From: Spelaeicoccus albus
Lineage (GTDB): Bacteria > Actinomycetota > Actinomycetes > Actinomycetales > Brevibacteriaceae
Reading direction: 5' to 3'
Assembly: GCF_013409065.1 (NCBI RefSeq)
Contig: NZ_JACBZP010000001.1
Span: forward strand, 3,606,518 to 3,670,517
DNA length: 64,000 bases
Shown: in pieces, positions 5,732-33,497 of the stretch
How positions within the stretch are numbered: position 1 is the first letter of the stretch
How the letters are laid out: each line of letters opens with the position of its first letter
Position numbers and translations under genes: made by a program
Notes under the pieces: model-generated
What the model saw: the letters and a program-made list of their open reading frames with translations, nothing else
What the model was told of the DNA's origin: nothing
The model's database searches: none

Positions 5732-6793
5732 ATGTCAATTCGCTTACGACTGGGCGCTGCCATAGTGGCCGGCGCCTTGGCTCTTGTCGGGTTCACCGCC
5801 GTCGGGGCCGAGGCCTGCGCATGCGGCGCCATGGTGCCGCCAAAGGGCAGCTCCGTCGACGTCGATGCCGAACGGGCACTCGTCAAACTCGACAGCGGCG
5901 TCGAGACAATTGCGTTGCAGCTGAACATGCTGGGCGGTTCGACAGAGGCGGCGCTCGTCGTCCCCACGCCGGCGCCGGCCCGCGTGAGTGCCGGCGACAC
6001 GGACATGTTCACCCGATTGGACGAGCTCACCGAGCCCGAAGTACGCGTGGTGAACGATTGGTGGCCGTCCATCGGCGGCGACGGCGCGACCGCCGTGGGG
6101 TCGGCGCCCACCGTCGTCCGCCAGGTGCAACTCGGCCCGCTTGAAGCCACCACGTTGAAGGGCGGAACCACCAAGAGCCTGAAGAAGTGGCTGAGCGCGC
6201 ACCATTATGTGCTGTCGCCGGCAGTGCGCGACGGCTTGGCGGACTATGTCCGTCGCGGCTGGTCGTTCGTGGCGGTGCGGTTGAAATCGCACCGGGATCT
6301 GAACGGCGGCACACCTCCGCTGCTGATCAAGTTCCCCTCGAAAACACTTGTGTATCCGATGCGGTTGTCCCGGGCGGCGACCGAACCGCAGCACGTGCGG
6401 ATGTACGTCGTCGGCCAGCACAAGATGACGCGGGCCGACAGCGACAACAGCGGCAGCGCCGCGGGCAGTTCGTCGGTGGAGTGGGCGGGCCGGATTGCTT
6501 CCGCGGACCTCGACAATGCGGGCCTCAAGGAGTTTTTCGGCACGAACGACTATCTCACGGTGTTTTCTTCCGTCTACACGGATCCGCGGCTGCAGATCTC
6601 GAGCGACTATCGTTTCGTGCGCGCCGGCGACGACGATCCGTACCAGCCCGTGCAGACCCGACATCACAGCGTGCAGGTCGGCGGCATCTATGCCGGCCCG
6701 CTCATCGCTGTTGCCGTCGCCGTGCTCGTGCTGGCCGGCATCATTACTCTCGTCGTCCGAGTGCTGCGGCGCCGCAAGACCTCTACGCTTTGA
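5729..6793 (+). CDS. DUF2330 domain-containing membrane-anchored protein
   Basis: A signal peptide (RLRLGAAIVAGALALVGFTAVGAEA) is followed at once by ACACGAMVPP, the characteristic cysteine-containing start of DUF2330 proteins. A long extracytoplasmic domain follows, and a single C-terminal helix near residues 320-345 (IAVAVAVLVLAGIITLVVRVL) precedes a basic tail RRRKTSTL. The predicted topology is therefore exported, with a C-terminal membrane anchor. The function of DUF2330 is not established. Two ATG codons stand in tandem, and either could be the start. The 3' end overlaps the convergent MFS gene by 11 bases. Confidence 0.8.
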   Translation: MMSIRLRLGAAIVAGALALVGFTAVGAEACACGAMVPPKGSSVDVDAERALVKLDSGVETIALQLNMLGGSTEAALVVPTPAPARVSAGDTDMFTRLDELTEPEVRVVNDWWPSIGGDGATAVGSAPTVVRQVQLGPLEATTLKGGTTKSLKKWLSAHHYVLSPAVRDGLADYVRRGWSFVAVRLKSHRDLNGGTPPLLIKFPSKTLVYPMRLSRAATEPQHVRMYVVGQHKMTRADSDNSGSAAGSSSVEWAGRIASADLDNAGLKEFFGTNDYLTVFSSVYTDPRLQISSDYRFVRAGDDDPYQPVQTRHHSVQVGGIYAGPLIAVAVAVLVLAGIITLVVRVLRRRKTSTL

Positions 6794-7976
6794 GCGACTC
6801 GGGCCGCCGGGCGGCCGGGGCGGCAAGTCCGGCCGCCACCACCAATGCGAGCACGAGGATCAATGCGTTCAGCAGTCCGATGTGCGCTCCGATCAGCCCG
6901 ATGAGGGGCGGCCCGGCCAAGAACGCCAAGTAGCCCATCGTGGCGACGGCGCTGACGCGAGCCGCGGCCTTTTGCGGGTCGTCCGCTGCCGCGGACATTC
7001 CCACCGGGAATCCGAGCGCCGTGCCGAGGCCCCACGGCACCACTGCGGCGACCGCCACGGCTGGCCACGGCGAGAAGATGAACGCGGCAAGGCCGACCAT
7101 CGCCGTCGCCGCCGAGACCCGCAAGACCGGCACGCGGCCGAACTTGTCGATGAGCGGCCCACCGGCAATGCGGCCGATGGTCATGGCGGACACGAAGACG
7201 CCGAAGACTATCGCCCCCGCCGTGTTCGTCAGGCCGTGCCCGTCGACCGAGGCAAGCGCGAGCCAGTCGCTCGCCGACCCTTCCGCAAAGGACATGCCGA
7301 GCATGACGATGCCGATCAACAGTACCCGGGCCTCGATCCACGCTCGGATCGCACTCCGGGTCTTGTCCTTCCACGTCATGGACGGCGCTTCGGGGACCGC
7401 GCGCCTCGCCACGAATCGTGCGGCAATCGGCATGACGACGACAAGAAGCACCGCGACGGCGCCGAGGTGCCACAGGACCGGGATCCCGAGTTTCGACGCG
7501 GCAGCTCCCGCGACGGCGCCCGTCACGGTGCCCAGGCTGAATGACGCGTGCATGAGCGGAAGCATCGTGCGTCCGATTTCCCGCTCGACGAGCGCGCCTT
7601 CGAGGTTCATGATCACGTCGCAGCTGCCTTGCCCGAAGCCGAACACGAAGAGACCGACGACCACGACTGCCGGCGACGACACGCTGCCGGCACCGACGAT
7701 GGCCAGACCCGCGCCCGCCACGACGAGCGCCGCACCCATGGCGCGTCCTGCGCCCAGCCACGTCACAATCGGGTTGGCCATAGTCAGGCCGGCTATCGAG
7801 CCGATGGACAGACCGAGGATGACGAGGCCGACGCTACCCGTCGACAGCTGCAGGTCGTCGCGCACGGCCGGAATGCGCGCCACCCAGGACGACAGGCCGA
7901 AGCCGCTCAAAATGAACGCGATGAACACGGCGCCCAGCCAGGCCCGAGTCGTGGGCTGCGTACGTCGAATCGTCAC
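6783..7976 (-). CDS. MFS transporter
   Basis: This is a major facilitator superfamily carrier with about twelve hydrophobic segments. It opens AWLGAVFIAFILSGFGLSSW and carries ARIPAVRDDLQLS, typical of the FucP/YbjJ-like MFS group. The substrate is unknown. GTG 7976 overlaps the stop of the upstream MATE gene by four bases (GTGA), arguing for translational coupling; ATG 7994, six codons earlier, is an alternative. The open frame continues far upstream in antisense sequence that is not coding. Two different carrier families in one unit suggest a shared efflux or export role, which is inference. Confidence 0.85.
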   Translation of the reverse strand: MTIRRTQPTTRAWLGAVFIAFILSGFGLSSWVARIPAVRDDLQLSTGSVGLVILGLSIGSIAGLTMANPIVTWLGAGRAMGAALVVAGAGLAIVGAGSVSSPAVVVVGLFVFGFGQGSCDVIMNLEGALVEREIGRTMLPLMHASFSLGTVTGAVAGAAASKLGIPVLWHLGAVAVLLVVVMPIAARFVARRAVPEAPSMTWKDKTRSAIRAWIEARVLLIGIVMLGMSFAEGSASDWLALASVDGHGLTNTAGAIVFGVFVSAMTIGRIAGGPLIDKFGRVPVLRVSAATAMVGLAAFIFSPWPAVAVAAVVPWGLGTALGFPVGMSAAADDPQKAAARVSAVATMGYLAFLAGPPLIGLIGAHIGLLNALILVLALVVAAGLAAPAARRPESLKA

Positions 7977-23599: not shown

Positions 23600-23637
23600 C
23601 GCATCGCAGGGGCAGACAGTTCGCCCCGTTTGATGCG
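23600..23637. repeat. Hairpin overlapping the 25-bp palindrome
   Basis: CGCATC (23600-23605) and GGGGC (23609-23613) pair with GCCCC (23623-23627) and GATGCG (23632-23637). The last arm is also the first six bases of the perfect palindrome at 23632-23690, so the two hairpins cannot form fully at once. Confidence 0.55.
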
Positions 23638-23690
23638 GAATGTTCCCCATGATGCGGGAATGTCACGCATCATGGGGAACATTCCGCATC
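23632..23690. repeat. Perfect 25-bp inverted repeat between hutH and the small membrane gene
   Basis: Bases 23632-23656 are perfectly inverted at 23666-23690 around nine bases. The arm contains the units GATGCGGAATGT and GATGCGGGAATGT in tandem, so the repeat is internally repetitive too. It starts 13 bases beyond the hutH stop and may end hutH transcription, although no T run follows. A repetitive extragenic element is the alternative. Confidence 0.85.
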
Positions 23691-23702
23691 ACGAAGCCGA
23701 AA

Positions 23703-25256
23703 TCAGACCAGGGCTGCGCCGGCTTTCTTGGCTGCAGCGACGAGTCGGCCTTCTTCGAGCGCCGCGACCGTCTCGGCGATTTCGGGGTGCGCGAAACGAT
23801 CGGGCCCGGGGCCATCGACCTTTTTGCGCAGCTCGGCGACGACGGCGGCCGTGACCGGTCCCGGCGTCCGGTGCTCATCGCCCGTGCGGATGTCGAGCGC
23901 TTTGGCCGCGTTGAGGATTTCGATGGCAATTACCCGGCGCAGGCCGTCAATGCTGCGGCGCAGCTTGCGCGCACCCGACCAGCCCATCGATACGTGGTCT
24001 TCCTGCATGGCGGACGACGGGATCGAGTCCACGCTCGACGGGACGGCCAGTCGCTTCAGCTCGCTGACGATACCGGCCGACGTGTACTGGGTGATCATTC
24101 CGCCGGAGTCGACGCCCGCGTCGTACGTGAGGAACGGCGGCAGGCCGTGCGAGCGGGACTTGTCCAGCAGCCGGTCGGTGCGGCGTTCGCAAATGCTTGC
24201 CAGGTCGGCGATACCGATAGCCAGGAAGTCGAGGACGTACGCGACGGGCGCGCCGTGGAAATTGCCGTTCGACTCGACCTCACCCTCGGCGATGACCGGA
24301 TTGTCGATGGCCGAGGCCAGTTCGTAGCCGGCAATCTCGCGGGCGTGAGCCAGCGTATTGCGGACGGCGCCGGCCACCTGGGGATGGCAACGGATCGAAT
24401 ACGCGTCCTGCACCCGGTAGGTCTGCGGGCCGCGGGCCGATTCGATGATCGACGACCCCTTGAGCACGGCGCGGAGGTTTTTCGCCGACAGGGCCTGGCC
24501 GGGCTGCGGACGCAAGTTGATCATGTTCTCGTCGAACGGTCGGTCGGTGCCAAGCAGCGCTTCGGTCGTCATGGCCGCGGCGATATCGGCTTCCTTGAGC
24601 AATTCGTCGAGATCGGCCATAGCCAACACGAGCGTGCCAAGCATGCCGTCGGTGCCGTTGATCAGCGCGAGGCCTTCCTTTTCGGCAAGTTCGATCTGAT
24701 CGATGCCGGCGGCCTCGAGAACGGCTTTGCCTTCCAGGAGTGTGCCGTCCACCTTGCGGGCCTGGCCCTCTCCGATCAACGCCAGGGCACAATGGGCCAG
24801 CGGGGCGAGGTCACCCGAGCACCCGAGCGATCCGTATTCGTACACGACGGGCGTGACCTGCGACGACAACAGCTTCGCGTACGCCTCCGCGGTGGCCAAT
24901 TTGATTCCGGTGTGTCCTGTCGCAAGCGTGGACAGGCGCAGCAGCATGAGCGCGCGGACGACTTCGCTTTCGACTTCGGCTCCCGAACCGGCAGCGTGAG
25001 ACCGGATGAGCCGGCGTTGCAGTTCGGCGCGCTTTTCGGTCGGAATATGAGTGGTTGCGAGCGCGCCGAAGCCGGTGGACACTCCATAGACCGGCGTATC
25101 GCCGGCAGCGAGCTTGTCAATGGTTCCACGCGCGTCGGCGATTGCCTTTTTCGCATCGTCGGCGAGCTCTACGGGTTGTCCGTGCCGGGCAACCTTCACC
25201 AAGTCGCCTTCACTCACCGGTCCAATGCCTATGTATACGGGTTTCGTCTTAGCCAT
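23703..25256 (-). CDS. hutH: Histidine ammonia-lyase
   Basis: This is the first enzyme of histidine degradation, removing ammonia from L-histidine to give urocanate in the cytoplasm as a tetramer. The electrophilic MIO cofactor forms from the triad in YGSLGCSGDLAPLAH at residues 146-148. Here the triad reads Cys-Ser-Gly instead of the Ala-Ser-Gly of textbook histidases, a variant I believe is common in actinobacterial enzymes. YGVSTGFG (57-64), the HIPTEKR region and later LLDKSRSHGLPPFL fit the family, and 517 residues is normal. It is separated by about 4.7 kb from hutU, but a similar operator candidate lies upstream. Confidence 0.95.
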   Translation of the reverse strand: MAKTKPVYIGIGPVSEGDLVKVARHGQPVELADDAKKAIADARGTIDKLAAGDTPVYGVSTGFGALATTHIPTEKRAELQRRLIRSHAAGSGAEVESEVVRALMLLRLSTLATGHTGIKLATAEAYAKLLSSQVTPVVYEYGSLGCSGDLAPLAHCALALIGEGQARKVDGTLLEGKAVLEAAGIDQIELAEKEGLALINGTDGMLGTLVLAMADLDELLKEADIAAAMTTEALLGTDRPFDENMINLRPQPGQALSAKNLRAVLKGSSIIESARGPQTYRVQDAYSIRCHPQVAGAVRNTLAHAREIAGYELASAIDNPVIAEGEVESNGNFHGAPVAYVLDFLAIGIADLASICERRTDRLLDKSRSHGLPPFLTYDAGVDSGGMITQYTSAGIVSELKRLAVPSSVDSIPSSAMQEDHVSMGWSGARKLRRSIDGLRRVIAIEILNAAKALDIRTGDEHRTPGPVTAAVVAELRKKVDGPGPDRFAHPEIAETVAALEEGRLVAAAKKAGAALV

Positions 25257-25342: not shown

Positions 25343-25434
25343 GGCCCGCGCAGCATTCCCAGTCAAGCAGCACGATCCCTGCCGGCCGGAAAATGGGCGG
25401 CAGTCAGGCCGGCAGGTCGCGCAACCGCACCGAC
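25343..25434. repeat. 92-bp direct repeat, left copy (displaced ddaH 3' end)
   Basis: These 92 bases recur at 29612-29703 in the same orientation with a single mismatch (A at 25355, G at 29624). In the right copy the last 31 bases are the end of ddaH and the rest is its downstream flank; here the fragment has no gene attached. It ends two bases before the stop codon of the amidase gene, so it marks the left boundary of the inserted module. Confidence 0.95.
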
Positions 25435-25436
25435 GC

Positions 25437-26441
25437 TCAGTTTCGATATTTCGCCGACACTGCCTTGAGATGCTGATGCATGCCACCGTAGACGGAAGCG
25501 TCGTGCAGCGCCCATGTCGGCAACTTTGCCATCATGGTGAAATTCGGATCACAAACATTGGCCGCCGGCGTCCTCACCGTCTGGCTGACAAGTTGATACG
25601 CGTCAAGAGTGTCCATGCCGGTCAATTCAGCTGTCCAGTTGACAAGATCACGCTGCGAAATGCGAAAAGCATCTTCGAGCGGCCGCATTGACCCCGTGGA
25701 CATCAAATATTCATCGTTTTGCAAACGCGGCCACGCTGGAGCTGCTCCTTTTACGACATCCACTGCGATTACACTGTTCATCGCGCACTCAAGCCCCGTT
25801 CCGCACAGTTCGCCTTCCCCTTGCCGGGCGTGTCCATCGCCGAGCGACAACATTGCTCCGGGCACGTTCACCGGCAAATAAAGTGTCACGCCCGCGCGCA
25901 ATTCGGGTGTGTCCATGTTCCCTCCGTACGTCGAGGGTGTGACCACCAAACGCACCTCATCACTTGCCGGTGCCACGCCGACTGTGCCGTGCATCGGATC
26001 GAGAGGCATCACGAGCCTATGATCGGAGCGCGTTGCCGAGAAAGTCGCTGTCCACGCATCGACGTCGATGTCGTAGATCCAGACTCTTTCATCCAGCGGC
26101 GGCTGGAGCGTCACTGTCTCGTGGCTGCCCGTCAATGCTCCGAAGTGTGGAAACGTCGCAGAAATTGCGTAATCGCGTGCCGGCACAATGCTCGCGAAAT
26201 GAACGGCCAACAGATCCCCGGGCTCGGCGCCGCGAATCTCAATAGGGCCGCTAACGGGATTGAGCCTGTCGAAGGCCACTGTTTCGCTCGGAAGGTCGCG
26301 GGAAGTTTTGACCATCCCCCCAAAACAGTCTTCGGTGCTGACCTCGACGATGTCGCCAGGGTCGACAGACAATTGTGGGTCTCGTCCGCCGAAAACGTAC
26401 GAGTACTCGTCAGGTTCGGGGGCCAACTGATGTATCCGCAT
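25437..26441 (-). CDS. Acetamidase/formamidase family protein
   Basis: This is a member of the FmdA_AmdA family, 334 residues, hydrolysing short amides such as formamide or acetamide to the acid and ammonia. Family landmarks are the N-terminal DIVEVSTEDCFGG, VSGPIEIRGAEPGDLLAVH, the MPLDPMHGTVGVAP segment, GGNMDTPEL and LGDGHARQGEGELCGTGLE, which includes likely metal-binding Asp/His residues. It is the last gene of the minus-strand unit, 51 bases after the permease gene. Its stop lies two bases from the left direct repeat. The substrate range cannot be fixed from sequence. Confidence 0.9.
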   Translation of the reverse strand: MRIHQLAPEPDEYSYVFGGRDPQLSVDPGDIVEVSTEDCFGGMVKTSRDLPSETVAFDRLNPVSGPIEIRGAEPGDLLAVHFASIVPARDYAISATFPHFGALTGSHETVTLQPPLDERVWIYDIDVDAWTATFSATRSDHRLVMPLDPMHGTVGVAPASDEVRLVVTPSTYGGNMDTPELRAGVTLYLPVNVPGAMLSLGDGHARQGEGELCGTGLECAMNSVIAVDVVKGAAPAWPRLQNDEYLMSTGSMRPLEDAFRISQRDLVNWTAELTGMDTLDAYQLVSQTVRTPAANVCDPNFTMMAKLPTWALHDASVYGGMHQHLKAVSAKYRN

Positions 26442-26492
26442 GCGTTTCGTCTCCTCGTCGCGTTCGTCAATGTTTTGTTAGCAGCTCCGCAA

Positions 26493-27881
26493 TCATTTGA
26501 CTCCGGATTCGTCGATGGTCATATCGCGCTTCATGACTCCACGGCGGAGCAGCACAATTGACAAGACGATTCCAATGGCGAGCCAAATGAGTCCGACCGT
26601 TTGGGCTGTTTCCCGCGCGTTGTACAACACTGCGCCCAGCACGCACAGTCCAATAATCGGGCACACGAGGTGGATGAACCATCGGCCGGTCTTCTTCTTG
26701 ATGTAGAAGTGCCACATCACTGCCACATTGAGGATGGAAAACGCCGTCAGTGCTCCGAAGTTGACCATCGTGCTGATCAGAGCAAGTCCGTCGGGCAAGA
26801 TGGTGAGGACGATGCCAAGGATCAGCGACAAGATCGCGACAAGGAACGTCGCGTTGACGGGCACCTTGTGCTTGACGCTGACCTTGCGTAAGAACTTGGG
26901 AAGCTGACGATCCCGCGCCATGGCGAACAGCAACCGAGACGTTGCTGCCTGCGCTACCAACGCGTCTGCAAACCCCCAGGCAATCGCGGTAGAAACAGCC
27001 GTCAGAATGTACAGCCACGGTCCTCCTGCGAAGCCGGCCGTCTCGTAGAAAGCCACTCCCGCGGCATCGCCATTCTTGATCAGCTTGTCCGGGTCCTCCA
27101 CGAGCAGACCAGCAACCCAGGTCTGCGCAACGAACAGAACTGCGACGCCTCCGAGTGCGACGATCATCGACCGAGCGAGCTGTTTCGACGTGCCCTGATT
27201 TTCTTCGGCCAGTGTCGAGACAGCATCGAATCCAAGGAAGCTCAGAACGGCTATGGATGCGGCGCCGAAGATCAGGGAGAAGGTAAAAGTTTCTGGATTA
27301 TAAAAGCCGGAAAGCCCGAAATCATGGCCTCCCTTTCCTTGCGCAAGGGCCGTGATGCCAATAGCGAGATAGATCACCAACACGATGAGCTCGGCCACAA
27401 GCATGATCTTGTTGACCTTCGCGGTCAGGGAAATACCCAAGTAATTGATGAGCGTGTTCAGTACGACGAAGATAATCAGCCATGCCCAAATTGGAATCGC
27501 CGGGATGATCGCGACCATGGCCAGCGAAGCCGCCAGATAAAGCAAACACGGCACCAAAATGTAATCAAGAAGAATCATCCAGCCGGCGACGAACCCGACA
27601 GGCCGGGCGATCCCGCGGCCGACGTAGGTGTACACCGATCCGGCCATCGGGTACTCCTGCGCCATTTGGGCGTACGAGTTCGCAGTGAAGATCATCGCGA
27701 CAAGGGCGATGATATACGTCAGCGGCACCATGCCGCCGGAGGACTGGAACACGCTGCCAAAAATCGCGAAGGGTGCGATCGGCACCATGAAGATGAGGCC
27801 GTACACGACCAAATCGACGAACGTCAGCGACCGCCTAAGCTCTTGTTTGTACCCGAACTTTTCTACACCCTGCGACGACAT
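26493..27881 (-). CDS. APC-superfamily amino acid/amine permease
   Basis: This is a 462-residue permease with about twelve helices. The first reads VVYGLIFMVPIAPFAIFG and carries the AMIFTANSYAQMAQEYP and AGSVYTYVGRGI motifs of APC-family carriers (COG0531 type). LSFLGFDAVSTLAEE is the conserved TM6 region. It opens the minus-strand pair whose second gene is the amidase, so uptake of the amide or a related amine is likely. Codon use looks less GC-biased than in neighbours outside the repeats. Confidence 0.88.
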   Translation of the reverse strand: MSSQGVEKFGYKQELRRSLTFVDLVVYGLIFMVPIAPFAIFGSVFQSSGGMVPLTYIIALVAMIFTANSYAQMAQEYPMAGSVYTYVGRGIARPVGFVAGWMILLDYILVPCLLYLAASLAMVAIIPAIPIWAWLIIFVVLNTLINYLGISLTAKVNKIMLVAELIVLVIYLAIGITALAQGKGGHDFGLSGFYNPETFTFSLIFGAASIAVLSFLGFDAVSTLAEENQGTSKQLARSMIVALGGVAVLFVAQTWVAGLLVEDPDKLIKNGDAAGVAFYETAGFAGGPWLYILTAVSTAIAWGFADALVAQAATSRLLFAMARDRQLPKFLRKVSVKHKVPVNATFLVAILSLILGIVLTILPDGLALISTMVNFGALTAFSILNVAVMWHFYIKKKTGRWFIHLVCPIIGLCVLGAVLYNARETAQTVGLIWLAIGIVLSIVLLRRGVMKRDMTIDESGVK

Positions 27882-27958
27882 GAGATCCCCTCCGGCGTCA
27901 CTGCCAGATTATTTTCAAATGAAACTAATAGGAATCAGCTTACGAACAAGAAGTCGGA

Positions 27959-29065
27959 TTATGCAAGAGCGAAACGCTGCACGACGTTCATGGCCGTGCC
28001 GTTCGCCTGCCCGAGGGTCATAGCACGGCCGGGCGCTCCCAAAGGCGACGACTGCCACATGTCATCACGGCGTCGCACCATTCCGTTCGCTAGCGGGATG
28101 AGCGAAGGTTGATCGCCGTTTCGTGCCATCCGTAATGACGACATTAAGTGAACTCCGTCGTAGACGCTTTCCGAATACGCTCCAAGGGAGGGCGCGAAAG
28201 CTCCGAACCGATTCTCGTACGCTGCCAGCAATTTCTGGTGCCGCTCGTCGCCGTCCGTCAAGAAGCTCGGCATCGCGGCAAACAAGGCTCCGGTGGAATC
28301 GCCTCCGACAGCGAGCAGGCTATCCTCGTCAAAGCTCGTGCAGAGTCGCGGTATCGACGATGCCCGACCATGAGCGGCAAATTGTCGATGGAATTCGACG
28401 GCGTCGCGGCCGACAAGTGACACGATCAAGCCTTGAGACCGAGTGTTCTGCATTTGATGGATGATCGATTCGGCATCCACGTCGCCAAAGCGCACAGTCC
28501 GCTCATATGTCACCTCGAGTCCGAAATCACCAAGAATGGCACGGGCGGCGCGGTGAACGTGCCGCGGCCAGACGTAATCGCTTCCGATCAAGGCCCAGCG
28601 TCGAATGTGCTGATACTCATGGAACCACCGAAGCGACGCAGCCAGTTGGCAATCCGGGGCAGGACCAAGCAGATACGAACTGCGCGATCCGATTCGTTCG
28701 AACTCGCGTGGAGGCGTAAACACATACGGCACCCGCGCGTTGACGGCTCGGACCACCGACGCGCGGATATCCGACGTGTGACAGCCGACGATTCCATCAA
28801 CCAATCCACTCGAGACAAGCGCCGAAATTTCCCGTTCGACCTCCGCACGTGTTCGACCGGCATCGATCAGCAACAGGTCCACGAGTCGGCCGTTGCCGCG
28901 GCTTGATGCTTCTTCGGCAGCCAGCTGCGCGCAGTTGACGGTCGACGGACCAATCGCTCCCATGATCCCGGACAATGGCACGAGCAACCCGATGACCAGC
29001 CGCCCCGACTGACGACCGGCTAGGATTATTTCAGATGGAAACAGCAGGCTCGGGTTGGCGCTCAT
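27959..29065 (-). CDS. AmiC/UrtA-like periplasmic-binding-fold protein, probable cytoplasmic amide sensor
   Basis: This is a 368-residue type-1 periplasmic-binding fold protein (Peripla_BP_6/FmdD-UrtA-AmiC group). SGRLVIGLLVPLSGIMGAIG starts the N-terminal lobe. SGLVDGIVGCHTSDIRASV, YVFTPPREFE, RRWALIGSDYVWPR and APSLGAYSESVYDGVHL match the ligand-binding core. No signal peptide or lipobox precedes it: ATG 29065 is followed by a short polar segment, so it should stay in the cytoplasm as AmiC of Pseudomonas does. AmiC binds amides and controls the amidase operon; a similar sensing role is inferred. A longer start 23 codons upstream would run into the divergent MarR gene and is disfavoured. Confidence 0.75.
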   Translation of the reverse strand: MSANPSLLFPSEIILAGRQSGRLVIGLLVPLSGIMGAIGPSTVNCAQLAAEEASSRGNGRLVDLLLIDAGRTRAEVEREISALVSSGLVDGIVGCHTSDIRASVVRAVNARVPYVFTPPREFERIGSRSSYLLGPAPDCQLAASLRWFHEYQHIRRWALIGSDYVWPRHVHRAARAILGDFGLEVTYERTVRFGDVDAESIIHQMQNTRSQGLIVSLVGRDAVEFHRQFAAHGRASSIPRLCTSFDEDSLLAVGGDSTGALFAAMPSFLTDGDERHQKLLAAYENRFGAFAPSLGAYSESVYDGVHLMSSLRMARNGDQPSLIPLANGMVRRRDDMWQSSPLGAPGRAMTLGQANGTAMNVVQRFALA

Positions 29066-29123
29066 GTCACAAGTATGGCCCGTCCTGTGACTATTTCGAT
29101 TAGATGCTTTCAAGGGGACGACA

Positions 29124-29570
29124 ATGAACCACACGAGCGAAGCGCTGAATTCGACGGTACCGCTGGGGATCGGGCTCGTCTCTCTTCAGCGCACGTTCGC
29201 CAAGCGCCTCGCCGTTCCGTTTTCCGAAGAGCACTCGAACACCGACCAATGGTGTGTGCTTGCCGCAATCGCCAAACTCGCGTCACCCACTATGAGCGAC
29301 CTGGCACTCGAAAGTGGTCTGGCCAATGCAACGCTGACTCGCACGGTCGACTCCTTAGTGAACAATGCGCTCGTCTTTCGCCTGGCGGACAAAGGCGATC
29401 GCCGGCGCATTAACGTCTATCTTTCTGATTTCGGCCGGCAACGGCTTAATCGCCTCAATGACATCGCCGATGCGTCCGAAAAAGCTCTTGCCGACGAGAT
29501 CGGCGATCCGTTGCTAGGTCGTTTGCGTCGATGCGTCGATCAGACGATCATCGCGCTCTCCAACGACTAG
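29124..29570 (+). CDS. MarR family transcriptional regulator
   Basis: This is a 148-residue winged helix regulator. PTMSDLALESGLANATLTRTVDSLVN forms the helix-turn-helix region (about residues 57-82) and DKGDRRRINVYLSDFGRQRL the beta-wing typical of MarR. AAGGGGA lies before ATG 29124. It is divergent from the AmiC-like gene with 58 bases between starts, so it probably controls the amide module. Its 3' end lies 41 bases from the right direct repeat, inside the inserted module. Confidence 0.85.
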   Translation: MNHTSEALNSTVPLGIGLVSLQRTFAKRLAVPFSEEHSNTDQWCVLAAIAKLASPTMSDLALESGLANATLTRTVDSLVNNALVFRLADKGDRRRINVYLSDFGRQRLNRLNDIADASEKALADEIGDPLLGRLRRCVDQTIIALSND

Positions 29571-29611
29571 TCGAGCCCGTCGCCGGTCGGCGGGCACCGC
29601 GCGGCCCAAAT

Positions 29612-29703
29612 GGCCCGCGCAGCGTTCCCAGTCAAGCAGCACGATCCCTGCCGGCCGGAAAATGGGCGGCAGTCAGGCCGGCAGGTCGCGCAACCGCACC
29701 GAC
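29612..29703. repeat. 92-bp direct repeat, right copy (native ddaH 3' end)
   Basis: This is the right member of the repeat pair. Bases 29673-29703 are the end of the intact ddaH reading frame including its stop. Bases 29612-29672 are its downstream region with a terminator-like hairpin. Because ddaH is whole here, this side looks like the reconstructed or native junction and the left copy like the displaced one. Confidence 0.95.
29647..29685 (-). terminator. Hairpin at the 3' end of ddaH
   Basis: CCTGCCGGCC (29647-29656) pairs perfectly with GGCCGGCAGG (29676-29685), which includes the last codons and lies against the stop codon of ddaH. A ten-base GC-rich stem here could end the ddaH message, although no T run follows. 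The same hairpin is duplicated in the left direct repeat (25378-25416). Confidence 0.4.
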
Positions 29704-30443
29704 AAGCAGGTGACGCAACCGTCGAGCTTTTCCAGCTCGCTGATATTGACGGTGACGACGTTCCAGCCGAGCGACCGCACCGTCTGGACGTTTTCCGGCC
29801 CCGACGTCGACATGAGGACCGTGTCATCGCTCAAGACGACGACCGCGCTGCCATGCGGCTCAGGCAATGCGAGGAACTGCGGGAACAATCCCGGCTGGTC
29901 AACGTTCGGCTCGTAGCCGATCACGGTGCCGTCCGGAAGCGCGGTCACGGCGGACTTCAAATGCAAGACCTTCGATACCGGCACTCCTACAACTGTCGCG
30001 CCGGCCGGCGTCAAAGCGGCACGCAACTGCGAAACGCCCTCGGCATTCGTCCTGCCGGAGTGCCCGACGTAAATGGTGTCGCCGATCTTGAGCACGTCGC
30101 CGCCGTCGAGAGTGGCCGGGTGCGAGATCTCCGAAATCTCGTATCCGCGGTCGGCCAAGACCGATTTGGTACCGTCCTGTTCGCCGCGGCGGGTCGGATG
30201 ACCGGCATTGGCGATGACCGCGTGATGTTTGTAGACGACGACGGTATCCTCCACGAACACCGAATCGGGGTGATCCGGTGAGGCAGGCACCTCGATGATT
30301 TCGTAGCCGGCGCCTTTCACCGCGTCAACGTATTCCGTCCACTGCTCCTCCGCCCGGGCAACGTCGACCGGGACCGCGTCTTCCGCGACCCCCTCGTCCA
30401 ATCGCTCGACCGGTTTACGTACCAAGGCGGCACGAATGCTCAT
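29673..30443 (-). CDS. ddaH: Dimethylarginine dimethylaminohydrolase (DDAH) or related arginine-modifying amidinotransferase-fold enzyme
   Basis: This is a 256-residue guanidino-modifying enzyme hydrolysing N-omega-methylated arginines to citrulline and methylamines. The substrate and catalytic residues are recognisable: VEDTVVV (Glu 65, Asp 66), LDGGDVLKIG, His 161 in KVLHLKSAV and the nucleophile Cys 246 in LDGCVTCLS. Its length equals that of bacterial DDAH proteins. ATG 30443 is preceded by AAAGGGGAAG. Its last nine codons and stop are part of the 92-bp direct repeat. The physiological substrate could also be another arginine analogue. Confidence 0.85.
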   Translation of the reverse strand: MSIRAALVRKPVERLDEGVAEDAVPVDVARAEEQWTEYVDAVKGAGYEIIEVPASPDHPDSVFVEDTVVVYKHHAVIANAGHPTRRGEQDGTKSVLADRGYEISEISHPATLDGGDVLKIGDTIYVGHSGRTNAEGVSQLRAALTPAGATVVGVPVSKVLHLKSAVTALPDGTVIGYEPNVDQPGLFPQFLALPEPHGSAVVVLSDDTVLMSTSGPENVQTVRSLGWNVVTVNISELEKLDGCVTCLSVRLRDLPA

Positions 30444-30472: not shown

Positions 30473-30536
30473 CGCCGAGAGTGGAGTAGTTGTCGCTTTT
30501 GGCCTGCAAAAAGCGACAACTACTCCACTCTCGGCG
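30473..30536. repeat. Perfect 28-bp inverted repeat between ddaH and an APC permease gene
   Basis: Bases 30473-30500 are exactly inverted at 30509-30536 around an eight-base loop; each arm ends toward the loop with GTCGCTTTT or its complement. The right arm contains the last codons and TAG stop of the permease gene. Read leftward, a hairpin of this kind followed by further GC-rich sequence could terminate the permease message. The CGCCGAG/GTGG start of the arm is shared with the palindrome at 20061. Confidence 0.9.
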
Positions 30537-31980
30537 AAGGTGTGGGTGGGGCGTCCGCATTCAACGTGGAGTGGCGGCGCCCATAGGCAAAATACACGAT
30601 GACGGCCAGCGCCATCCAACTCACGAAAGCGATCCAGGTGACCGCCGAGAGTCCGCTCAGCAGGTAGAGGCACGCGACGATCGCCAGTACCGGCGTCACG
30701 GGATATCCGGGCACCGTGAATCCGCGGGCGAGATCCGGACGGCGCACGCGCAGCACGATCACGCCCAGCGCCACCGACGTGAACGCCGACAGCGCGCCGA
30801 TGCTGGTGGCTTCGAACAAGACGTCGATCGGCAGCAGCCCGGCCAGGAGCGCAACGAACGCGCTGACGATGACGGTGCTCTTCACGGGCGTGCCGGTGCG
30901 CTTCGACACAGCCGTGAACACCTTGGGCATCAGCCCGTCCTGGCCCATGGTGAAGAAGATGCGAGTCTGTCCGAACATGCATACCAGCGTCACCGAGAAC
31001 ACCGAGATCACGGCGCCGGCCGACAAGATGATCGCCGGCCATGACGCGCCCGTCAGGTTCGCCAAGATCTGCGACAGCCCGGCCTTCTGCCCGGCGAACA
31101 TTTGATATTTTTGCGCCCCGATGGCGCTCAGCGACACGAGCAGGTACACAAGCGTCACGATCACCAGCGAGTAAATGAGCGCCCGGGGCATCGACTTCTT
31201 CGGGTCTTTCGCTTCGTCACCGGCGGTCGACACGGCGTCCAGCCCGATGTAGCTGAAGAAGATGATCGATGCGGCAGCTCCGACGCCCGACCATCCATGG
31301 GCGAAGAAATTGTGAAAATGATCGACGGTGAACCCGGTGACGGCGACGCACACAAAGAAGATGAGCACCGCGACCTTGATACCGACCATGACGGCGTTCA
31401 CCACCGCCGACTCCCGCACGCCGCGGATCAACAGGACGCCGCACATGGCAACAAGGACGACTGCCGGGAGATTCACGATTCCGCCTCCGGCCGGCGCGCT
31501 CAGCAACGCCGCGGGAATCGCGTGCCCGGTGACTCCGATGACCAGGTTGTTGAGATATTCGCTCCATCCGACCGCCACGGCAGCCGACGACACGCCGTAT
31601 TCGAGGATCAAGAACCATCCGACGAGGTGCGCCGCGAACTCCCCCAACGCCAAATACGCGTACGAATACGATGACCCCGACACTGGCGCGATGGACGCCA
31701 TTTCCGCATAGCAGAGCGCCGTCAACCCAGCGGTCACGGCCGCAAGCATGAACGACAGGACGACGCCGGGCCCGGCCATCGGCGCGGCCTCGGCCAGCAC
31801 GAAGAAGATGCCGGTGCCGACGGTGCCGCCCACGCCCAGAGCCGTCAGGTGCAGCGTGGTCAGACGACGTTTCAGCTCGGTGTGCTGAGCTGCGACGTCT
31901 TCGATCGACCGGCGCCGCAGCAGTGTCGAGATCGCGGAGCGCGGCTGGTCCGCCGGCGCCCGCGGGCCGTCGGAGCTCAC
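30520..31980 (-). CDS. APC-superfamily amino acid permease (cationic amino acid transporter type)
   Basis: This is a 486-residue permease with about twelve helices. [21 protein letters not shown] is the unwound TM1 binding region of CAT/APA-type carriers. [19 protein letters not shown] and [25 protein letters not shown] are classic cationic amino acid transporter motifs. GTG 31980 overlaps the der stop by four bases (GTGA), so it is translationally coupled to a housekeeping gene. The frame extends far upstream antisense to der, but that part is not coding. With ddaH next door, arginine or methylarginine uptake is a plausible but unproven role. Confidence 0.88.
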
Positions 31981-33497
31981 CGTTTGGAACGCTTTTCGCG
32001 GATCCGCATCGTCAGCTCCACCGGGGTTCCGGCAAAACCGAACGCCTCCCGGAGCCGGCGCACGATGAACCGCCGGTAGCCCGGATCGAGGAACCCCGTC
32101 GTGAACAGCACGAATTTGGGCGGCCGGTTCGACGCTTGCGTGCCAAAGAGGATTCGCGGCTGCTTGCCGCCGCGCAACGGATGCGGATGCGCGGCCACCA
32201 GCTCGCCGAGGAACGCGTTGAAACGGCCCGTGGAAATACGCCGATCCCAGCTTTCGAGCGCCGTGTCCATGGCGGGCACGAGCTTGTCGGCATGCCATCC
32301 GGTCTTGGCCGACACGTTCACGCGCGGCGCCCACGTCATCTGCACGAGGTCCTTTTCGATCTCCCGTTCCAGGTAGTGCCGCCGCTCGTCCTCCATCAGA
32401 TCCCACTTGTTGTAGGCGATGACGAGGGCGCGCCCGGCCTCGATCACCGTCGACAGGATCCTGGTGTCCTGCTCGGACAGCGTTTCGGACGCATCGATCA
32501 GGACGACGGCGACTTCGGCCTTCTCGAGCGCGGTCTGCGTGCGCAATGCGGCATAGAAGTCCGCACCGGACGCCTGGTGGGCCCGCCGGCGGATCCCGGC
32601 CGTGTCCACGAACCGCCATTGCCGGCCGCCGAGTTGGACAAGTTCGTCGACGGGATCGCGCGTCGTGCCGGCCACGTCGTCGACGATGACGCGAGCCGAA
32701 CCCACGAGCTTGTTCAACATGCTCGACTTGCCGACGTTCGGGCGGCCGAGCAGCGCCACGCGCCGCGGCCCGCCGATCTCGTAGTCGCCGGCCACCGCCG
32801 AAACGGCCGGCAGCGTCTCGAGGGTGATGTCCAGCAAGTCGGCGACTCCCCGGCCGTGCATGCCCGACACCGGATGCGGCTCGCCCAGGCCGAGCGACCA
32901 GAGCGCGGCCGCGTCCAGCTCGCCTCGCTCGTCGTCGACCTTGTTGGCGGCCAGGATGACGGGTTTCTTGGTGCGCCGCAGCATCCGCACGATGCCTTCG
33001 TCGGAGGCCGTGATGCCGACCAGCGCGTCCACGACCAGCACGACGGCGTCCGCAAGCTCGGCAGCGATCTCGGCTTGACCGGCCACGCGCTGCGCCATCC
33101 CCTTGGCGCTCGATTCCCATCCGCCGGTGTCGACGACGGTGAACGGCCTGCCGTTCCATTCGGCCTTGTAGCTGACCCTGTCGCGCGTGACGCCCGGGTT
33201 GTCCTCGACGACGGCTTCGCGGCGCCCCAGGATGCGGTTCACGAGCGTCGACTTTCCGACGTTCGGCCGGCCCACGATGGCCACGACCGGGTCGGGGCCG
33301 GACGGCGTGTCTTCCGCCGCGCCGGTCTCGCCGGCATCGAGCAGCGCCAGATCGTCGTCTTCGAGCTGATAATCGGCAAGCCCGGCACGCAGCGACTCGG
33401 CTCGCGCGTCGGCGTCCTCGGGCGACGTCGCGGCGACGCGTTCGGCCAGGTCGTCCGGCGTGTCCCAGCTTTCGCCGGAGGGCTCACGGTCGCTCAT
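31977..33497 (-). CDS. der: Ribosome biogenesis GTPase Der (EngA)
   Basis: This is the essential tandem-GTPase acting in 50S subunit assembly. The two G domains each have a GRPNVGKS P-loop (residues about 76-83 and about 250), the G3 motifs DTGGWE and DTAGIRR, and NKVD/NKWD specificity motifs. A C-terminal KH-like domain follows. An acidic N-terminal extension of about 70 residues precedes the first domain, as in many actinobacterial Der proteins. It is the end of the conserved minus-strand run beginning with tyrA-cmk-plsC. Confidence 0.95.

Follow-up and report, generated by a model that had tools for sequence, protein, structure and literature searches.

An acquired amidase operon bracketed by a duplicated ddaH gene end in Spelaeicoccus albus

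In the chromosome of Spelaeicoccus albus, four genes—for an amidase, a permease, a binding protein and a MarR-family regulator—lie between two almost identical copies of the 3' end of ddaH, the dimethylargininase gene next door. The module is an acquired operon, bracketed by duplicated target. It was probably gained horizontally as one piece and inserted at the ddaH 3' end with duplication of the target, most likely without the participation of an integrase. The window analysed is the whole 64,000-nt stretch from 3,606,518 to 3,670,517 of contig NZ_JACBZP010000001.1 (assembly GCF_013409065.1), and positions are counted within it.

Two copies of one gene end

An earlier note on this DNA had pointed to a near-identical 92-bp direct repeat, and a repeat search of the window confirms it: positions 25343–25434 and 29612–29703 agree in 91 of 92 nucleotides, in the same orientation and at a spacing of 4269, the sole mismatch being A at 25355 against G at 29624. 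Searched as a whole (4.03 Mb, a single contig), the genome contains these two copies and no others, with E values of 2e-42 and 6e-41. No match to the repeat was found in 58 relatives, nor any match to its core in viral contigs, nor to it in Rfam. A one-base difference between the copies, together with the uniqueness of the enclosed segment, makes simple duplication during assembly unlikely.

The coordinates also bear out which copy is the original gene end. The right copy contains the genuine end of ddaH (29673–29703), 31 nt that comprise the stop codon at 29673, nine codons and one further base, followed by 61 nt of downstream sequence. The left copy contains an orphan ddaH 3' end (25404–25434, minus strand) plus the same 61 nt from downstream of ddaH, among them a terminator-like hairpin, and is separated from the amidase stop codon (25437–25439) by a gap of 2 nt. 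On the ddaH strand the repeat folds as a long hairpin (about -44 to -46 kcal/mol, z -1.6 to -1.9). It could be the terminator of ddaH, although there is no T-run after it and a terminator consensus scan does not list it.

When 624 kb of the genome, the window included, were compared with themselves, five dispersed direct repeats of at least 40 nt emerged. Two are multi-copy palindromes (L221 and L235), one is a gene-fragment paralogue (L228), and two—the ddaH repeat and a second one, L191, described below—consist of unique sequence and lie at the 3' ends of genes.

What the copies enclose

The inserted segment (25435–29611) is unique and 4177 bp long; it begins 2 nt past the amidase stop and finishes 41 nt past that of the MarR gene. 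Its genes were assigned to families with Pfam and NCBIfam. Three are on the minus strand: an FmdA/AmdA-type acetamidase/formamidase of 334 aa (25437–26441; PF03069), whose nearest solved structure by sequence is a putative acetamidase/formamidase (PDB 5ubu, E 2e-70); an APC-family permease of 462 aa (26493–27881; PF13520); and an AmiC/UrtA-like binding protein with no evident signal peptide (27959–29065; PF13458), which starts at the ATG at 29065 and has a GTG upstream at 29134. By sequence, the structure nearest to the binding protein is an extracellular ligand-binding receptor (8tg1, E 2e-17), followed by AmiC itself (1pea, E 4e-10, and 1qnl). The fourth gene, for the MarR-family regulator (29124–29570, plus strand; PF12802/PF01047), diverges from that of the binding protein. 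From these families, the module would appear to serve the use of amides. It shares an AmiC-like binding protein with AmiC–AmiR amidase operons, but Pfam finds no AmiR-like antiterminator gene among the four; the regulator there is of the MarR family, instead.

That the enclosed genes form one functional set, as had been proposed, is supported by the conservation of their order elsewhere. The same series—amidase, permease, binding protein, MarR—recurs in unrelated actinobacteria, namely genomes G247, G111, G389, G524 and G674 and Nonomuraea, each time in different surroundings. The four genes thus make up a natural operon, one that has travelled as a whole. The proteins of the G247 operon are 74% (amidase), 67% (permease), 43% (binding protein) and 46% (MarR) identical to those of S. 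albus. Homologues of the amidase, the binding protein and the MarR regulator were absent from the vicinity of ddaH in 53 other ddaH loci.

Of 17 loci, 16 pair an AmiC-like binding protein that has no evident signal peptide with a MarR gene, and in 15 the two genes diverge (window 27959–29570; L117–L129, L140, L183, L184 and L186). The two proteins are possibly a sensor–regulator pair; a literature search found no description of the pairing.

A foreign composition

The earlier note had judged the GC content of the module, by eye, to be low. Calculation bears this out: the insert has 57.7% GC, compared with 65.9% in the left flank, 64.0% in ddaH and its permease, and 68.7% beyond. Against a reference of 117 genes in a sample of nine genomic stretches, the amidase and binding-protein genes have codon scores in the lowest 1%, and GC3 values below those of all 117; the MarR gene is at the 5th percentile for codon score and the 4th for GC3, and the permease of the insert at the 12th for both. 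Among 132 four-gene runs sampled, none has an average codon score as low as that of the module, not even the low-GC stretch at 1.50–1.52 Mb. The genes to either side look native: ddaH and its permease are at the 51st and 52nd percentiles, and hutH is at the 73rd. Where homologous operons reside in high-GC hosts, their GC3 is high, and so the low GC of the module is not intrinsic to genes of this kind.

Two possible sources were considered and discarded. The best match in a plasmid collection was 68%, and lay in an 11.85-Mb Nonomuraea replicon; of phages there were no matches. The low-GC stretch just mentioned (L194, G000:C1:1500001-1520000) is 58.7% GC in a genome of about 66%, has atypical codon use, and is likely to be an island in its own right.

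The locus before the proposed insertion

All four neighbouring genes are on the minus strand. To the left is hutH (23703–25256), which is intact and whose start is separated from the left repeat by 86 nt. To the right are ddaH (29673–30443, ATG at 30443; NF045660, 352 bits against a cut-off of 340), the gene whose 3' end is duplicated; a second APC permease gene (30520–31980), upstream of ddaH, whose GTG start overlaps the stop codon of der; and der (31977–33497) itself, which encodes the EngA GTPase. The closest relative compared, G003, belongs to another genus of the same family (HutH is 79% and Der 80% identical). It keeps the order ScpB–TyrA–Cmk–PlsC–Der–HutH, with Der and HutH as direct neighbours 85 nt apart. 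Neither the permease–ddaH pair nor the amidase module is present there, and ddaH has no match anywhere in the G003 genome. The pair travels together elsewhere, in Brevibacterium sp. 68QC2CO and Actinobaculum suis.

The locus thus consists of two layers. One is the permease–ddaH pair between der and hutH, which either this lineage has gained or G003 has lost; the other is the amidase operon, which separates ddaH from hutH. An ancestral order with hutH directly beside ddaH, which the earlier note thought likely, does not find support in that form, since in G003 hutH adjoins der, with no ddaH, permease or module between. We infer that insertion was the direction of change and that hutH and ddaH were adjacent just before it, an adjacency that would have been an intermediate state at most.

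Possible routes of entry

In our preferred reading, the recipient locus would already have been rearranged to der–permease–ddaH–hutH. Insertion at the ddaH 3' end would then have left a 92-nt, target-derived copy on the far side of the newcomer, carrying the last nine ddaH codons, the stop and the terminator-like hairpin. Two routes might lead there. A fragment that had recircularised, and that bore the ddaH end beforehand, could have entered the chromosome by a single crossover; or a linear fragment could have been joined into a staggered break, and the gaps filled in. The genome encodes bacterial Ku (283 bits, cut-off 150), and therefore end joining is also possible. The present data are compatible with both, and each has its awkwardness. 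The crossover demands a donor that already contained the ddaH end of this lineage, which pushes the first joining one step back, and 92 nt is long for the simple filling of staggered ends. Microhomology at the junctions is weak, amounting to an imperfect GCxCGGCC match near the right edge.

The signs of a mobile element are missing. The ends of the insert, GCTCAGTTTC... and ...GGCCCAAAT, show no terminal inverted repeats by eye, and none appeared in the repeat search. Pfam identifies all four genes as something other than a transposase, and neither within the insert nor next to it is there a dedicated integrase; profile matches of its genes and a survey of recombinases thus uphold the observation that it encodes neither kind of enzyme. 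A transposon or composite insertion would have brought both a transposase and terminal inverted repeats. The window contains no tRNA, and the repeat no dif-like site. As for integron cassettes, the hairpin-bearing repeat occurs only twice in the genome, and one occurrence is partly ddaH coding sequence, which would speak against an attC site. A 13-nt inverted match was considered as the terminal inverted repeat of the whole 6.6-kb der–hutH stretch, and rejected: random segment pairs equal its score in 0.7% of cases, and several looks had been made.

The locus is, then, a target-derived direct repeat around foreign DNA with no recombinase signature, and a close parallel comes from conjugation in E. 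coli. There, 56 of 60 analysed integrants carried a duplication of the homologous target, of 109–950 bp where sequenced, for which recircularisation and a single crossover were the explanation given (PMC3240628). As here, a foreign segment sits between direct copies of the target, with neither recombinase nor inverted ends, and the sizes come close to our 92; the homologous stretch was engineered in that work, however. Classical homology-facilitated illegitimate recombination (HFIR) is a related process, but target DNA is usually deleted in it, not duplicated as here. Comparisons of strains have turned up many small, variable, gene-sized segments, mostly not mobile elements, and 10–18% of them have flanking repeats, a common arrangement among strains (PMC2884548). 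Those repeats are mostly shorter than 30 bp, whereas this one is 92 nt and derived from the target.

The rival that survives best is a decayed integrative element of the CIME type. On this view a tyrosine recombinase would have placed a circle at the 3' end of ddaH, with the two repeats as its attL and attR, and the integrase gene would since have been lost, or the enzyme would act in trans. Gene 3' ends are often targeted by integrative elements, which restore the gene with a copy of their own, and CIMEs lack recombination genes yet retain attL and attR (PMC5704250). Our locus shares these features: direct repeats bracket the element, one copy completes a gene 3' end, and there is no internal integrase. 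The repeat also contains a strong hairpin, and the genome encodes tyrosine recombinases elsewhere. But the nearest, and the only one nearby, lies at about 39.4–39.9 kb of the window, 10 kb away, beside scp-like genes; its position suggests that it is XerD-like, and the repeat is not dif-like. At 92 nt the repeat is longer than usual, such recombined repeats being generally 8–60 bp (PMC5704250), and the insert is exactly one clean operon, with no leftover mobility gene. The 53 other ddaH loci, moreover, contain no integrase-like ORF—four recombinase loci in this genome served as queries, so that more distant integrases could have escaped—and no second ddaH 3' end, apart from six weak matches of 24–30 nt, mostly local and inverted. 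This weighs against an integrative element specific for ddaH, and gives no support to the idea that the 3' end of ddaH is a hot spot for integration. A decayed element is therefore unlikely, and an integrase-free event fits better. The earlier note had read the borders as the mark of integration beside a gene or of a single crossover; of these, integration of the integrase type is disfavoured by the 53 loci, and an event resembling a single crossover may have taken place.

Alternatively, the ddaH region might once have undergone a local tandem duplication, and the amidase operon might later have replaced most of the extra copy, with the repeat as what is left of it. We consider this improbable. 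It would account for a repeat that is unique, nearly identical and flanked on its outer sides by native sequence, but it needs two events, and nothing else between hutH and the module hints at a second ddaH or permease. It is more doubtful still that the module already lay between hutH and ddaH, and that 92 nt of the ddaH end were copied in behind the amidase later, to be kept, perhaps, as insulation for hutH. The left copy does stand directly behind the amidase stop, hairpin included; that the right copy abuts the foreign segment would then be coincidence, and ectopic copies of unique sequence are rare in this genome.

Other repeats in the genome

Architecturally, L191 resembles the ddaH repeat. 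It is a unique direct repeat of 79 nt (5818–5896 and 7622–7700; G000:C1:305818-307700), 92% identical with the mismatches mostly in the first 22 nt, and it is situated at two convergent gene 3' ends, FMN-reductase-like and cysteine-desulfurase-like as named from reading their translations. It brackets a set of about 1.7–1.8 kb with three genes, including one for a TetR regulator, of native-like GC. One might imagine a recurrent machinery in this lineage by which small operons enter at the 3' ends of genes, some 80–100 nt of the target being duplicated each time, with the amidase operon and L191 being two of its products, but we give the notion very little credence: two cases do not make a mechanism, although the question is worth asking genome-wide.

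Several families of near-perfect palindromes of 50–70 nt occur in the genome, at about 35 per Mb in our sample vs 9 per Mb in the sister genus. The window has them at 30473–30536, between the APC permease gene and ddaH and over the permease stop, and at 23631–23691. Copies of multi-copy palindromes, in direct orientation, also flank transporter-like operons of lower GC, 59% at L221 (1834–6461) and 62% at L235 (8413–16723). In G003, a 125-nt direct repeat, 93% identical, surrounds a single gene of 145 aa (L246, 6943–7067 and 7483–7607).

Implications

Insertion with target duplication would have been gentle on the locus. The right copy would leave ddaH complete, with its own end and hairpin, and the left would place that hairpin, once more, after the minus-strand amidase operon and ahead of hutH, which lies downstream on the same strand. 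Through the left copy hutH would retain its 86-nt upstream region, and neither neighbour would be damaged. Read in this functional way, from the layout of the sequence, the duplication could have been what let both genes survive.

We regard the locus as an unusually readable scar, left by the acquisition of an operon with no mobile element involved. The kind is already known; it is the clarity that is unusual. The scar marks the point at which the DNA entered, its duplication would account for the survival of both neighbours, and its repeats are long enough for recombination to delete the module again. The similar second bracket in the same genome raises the question of whether such scars are systematic.
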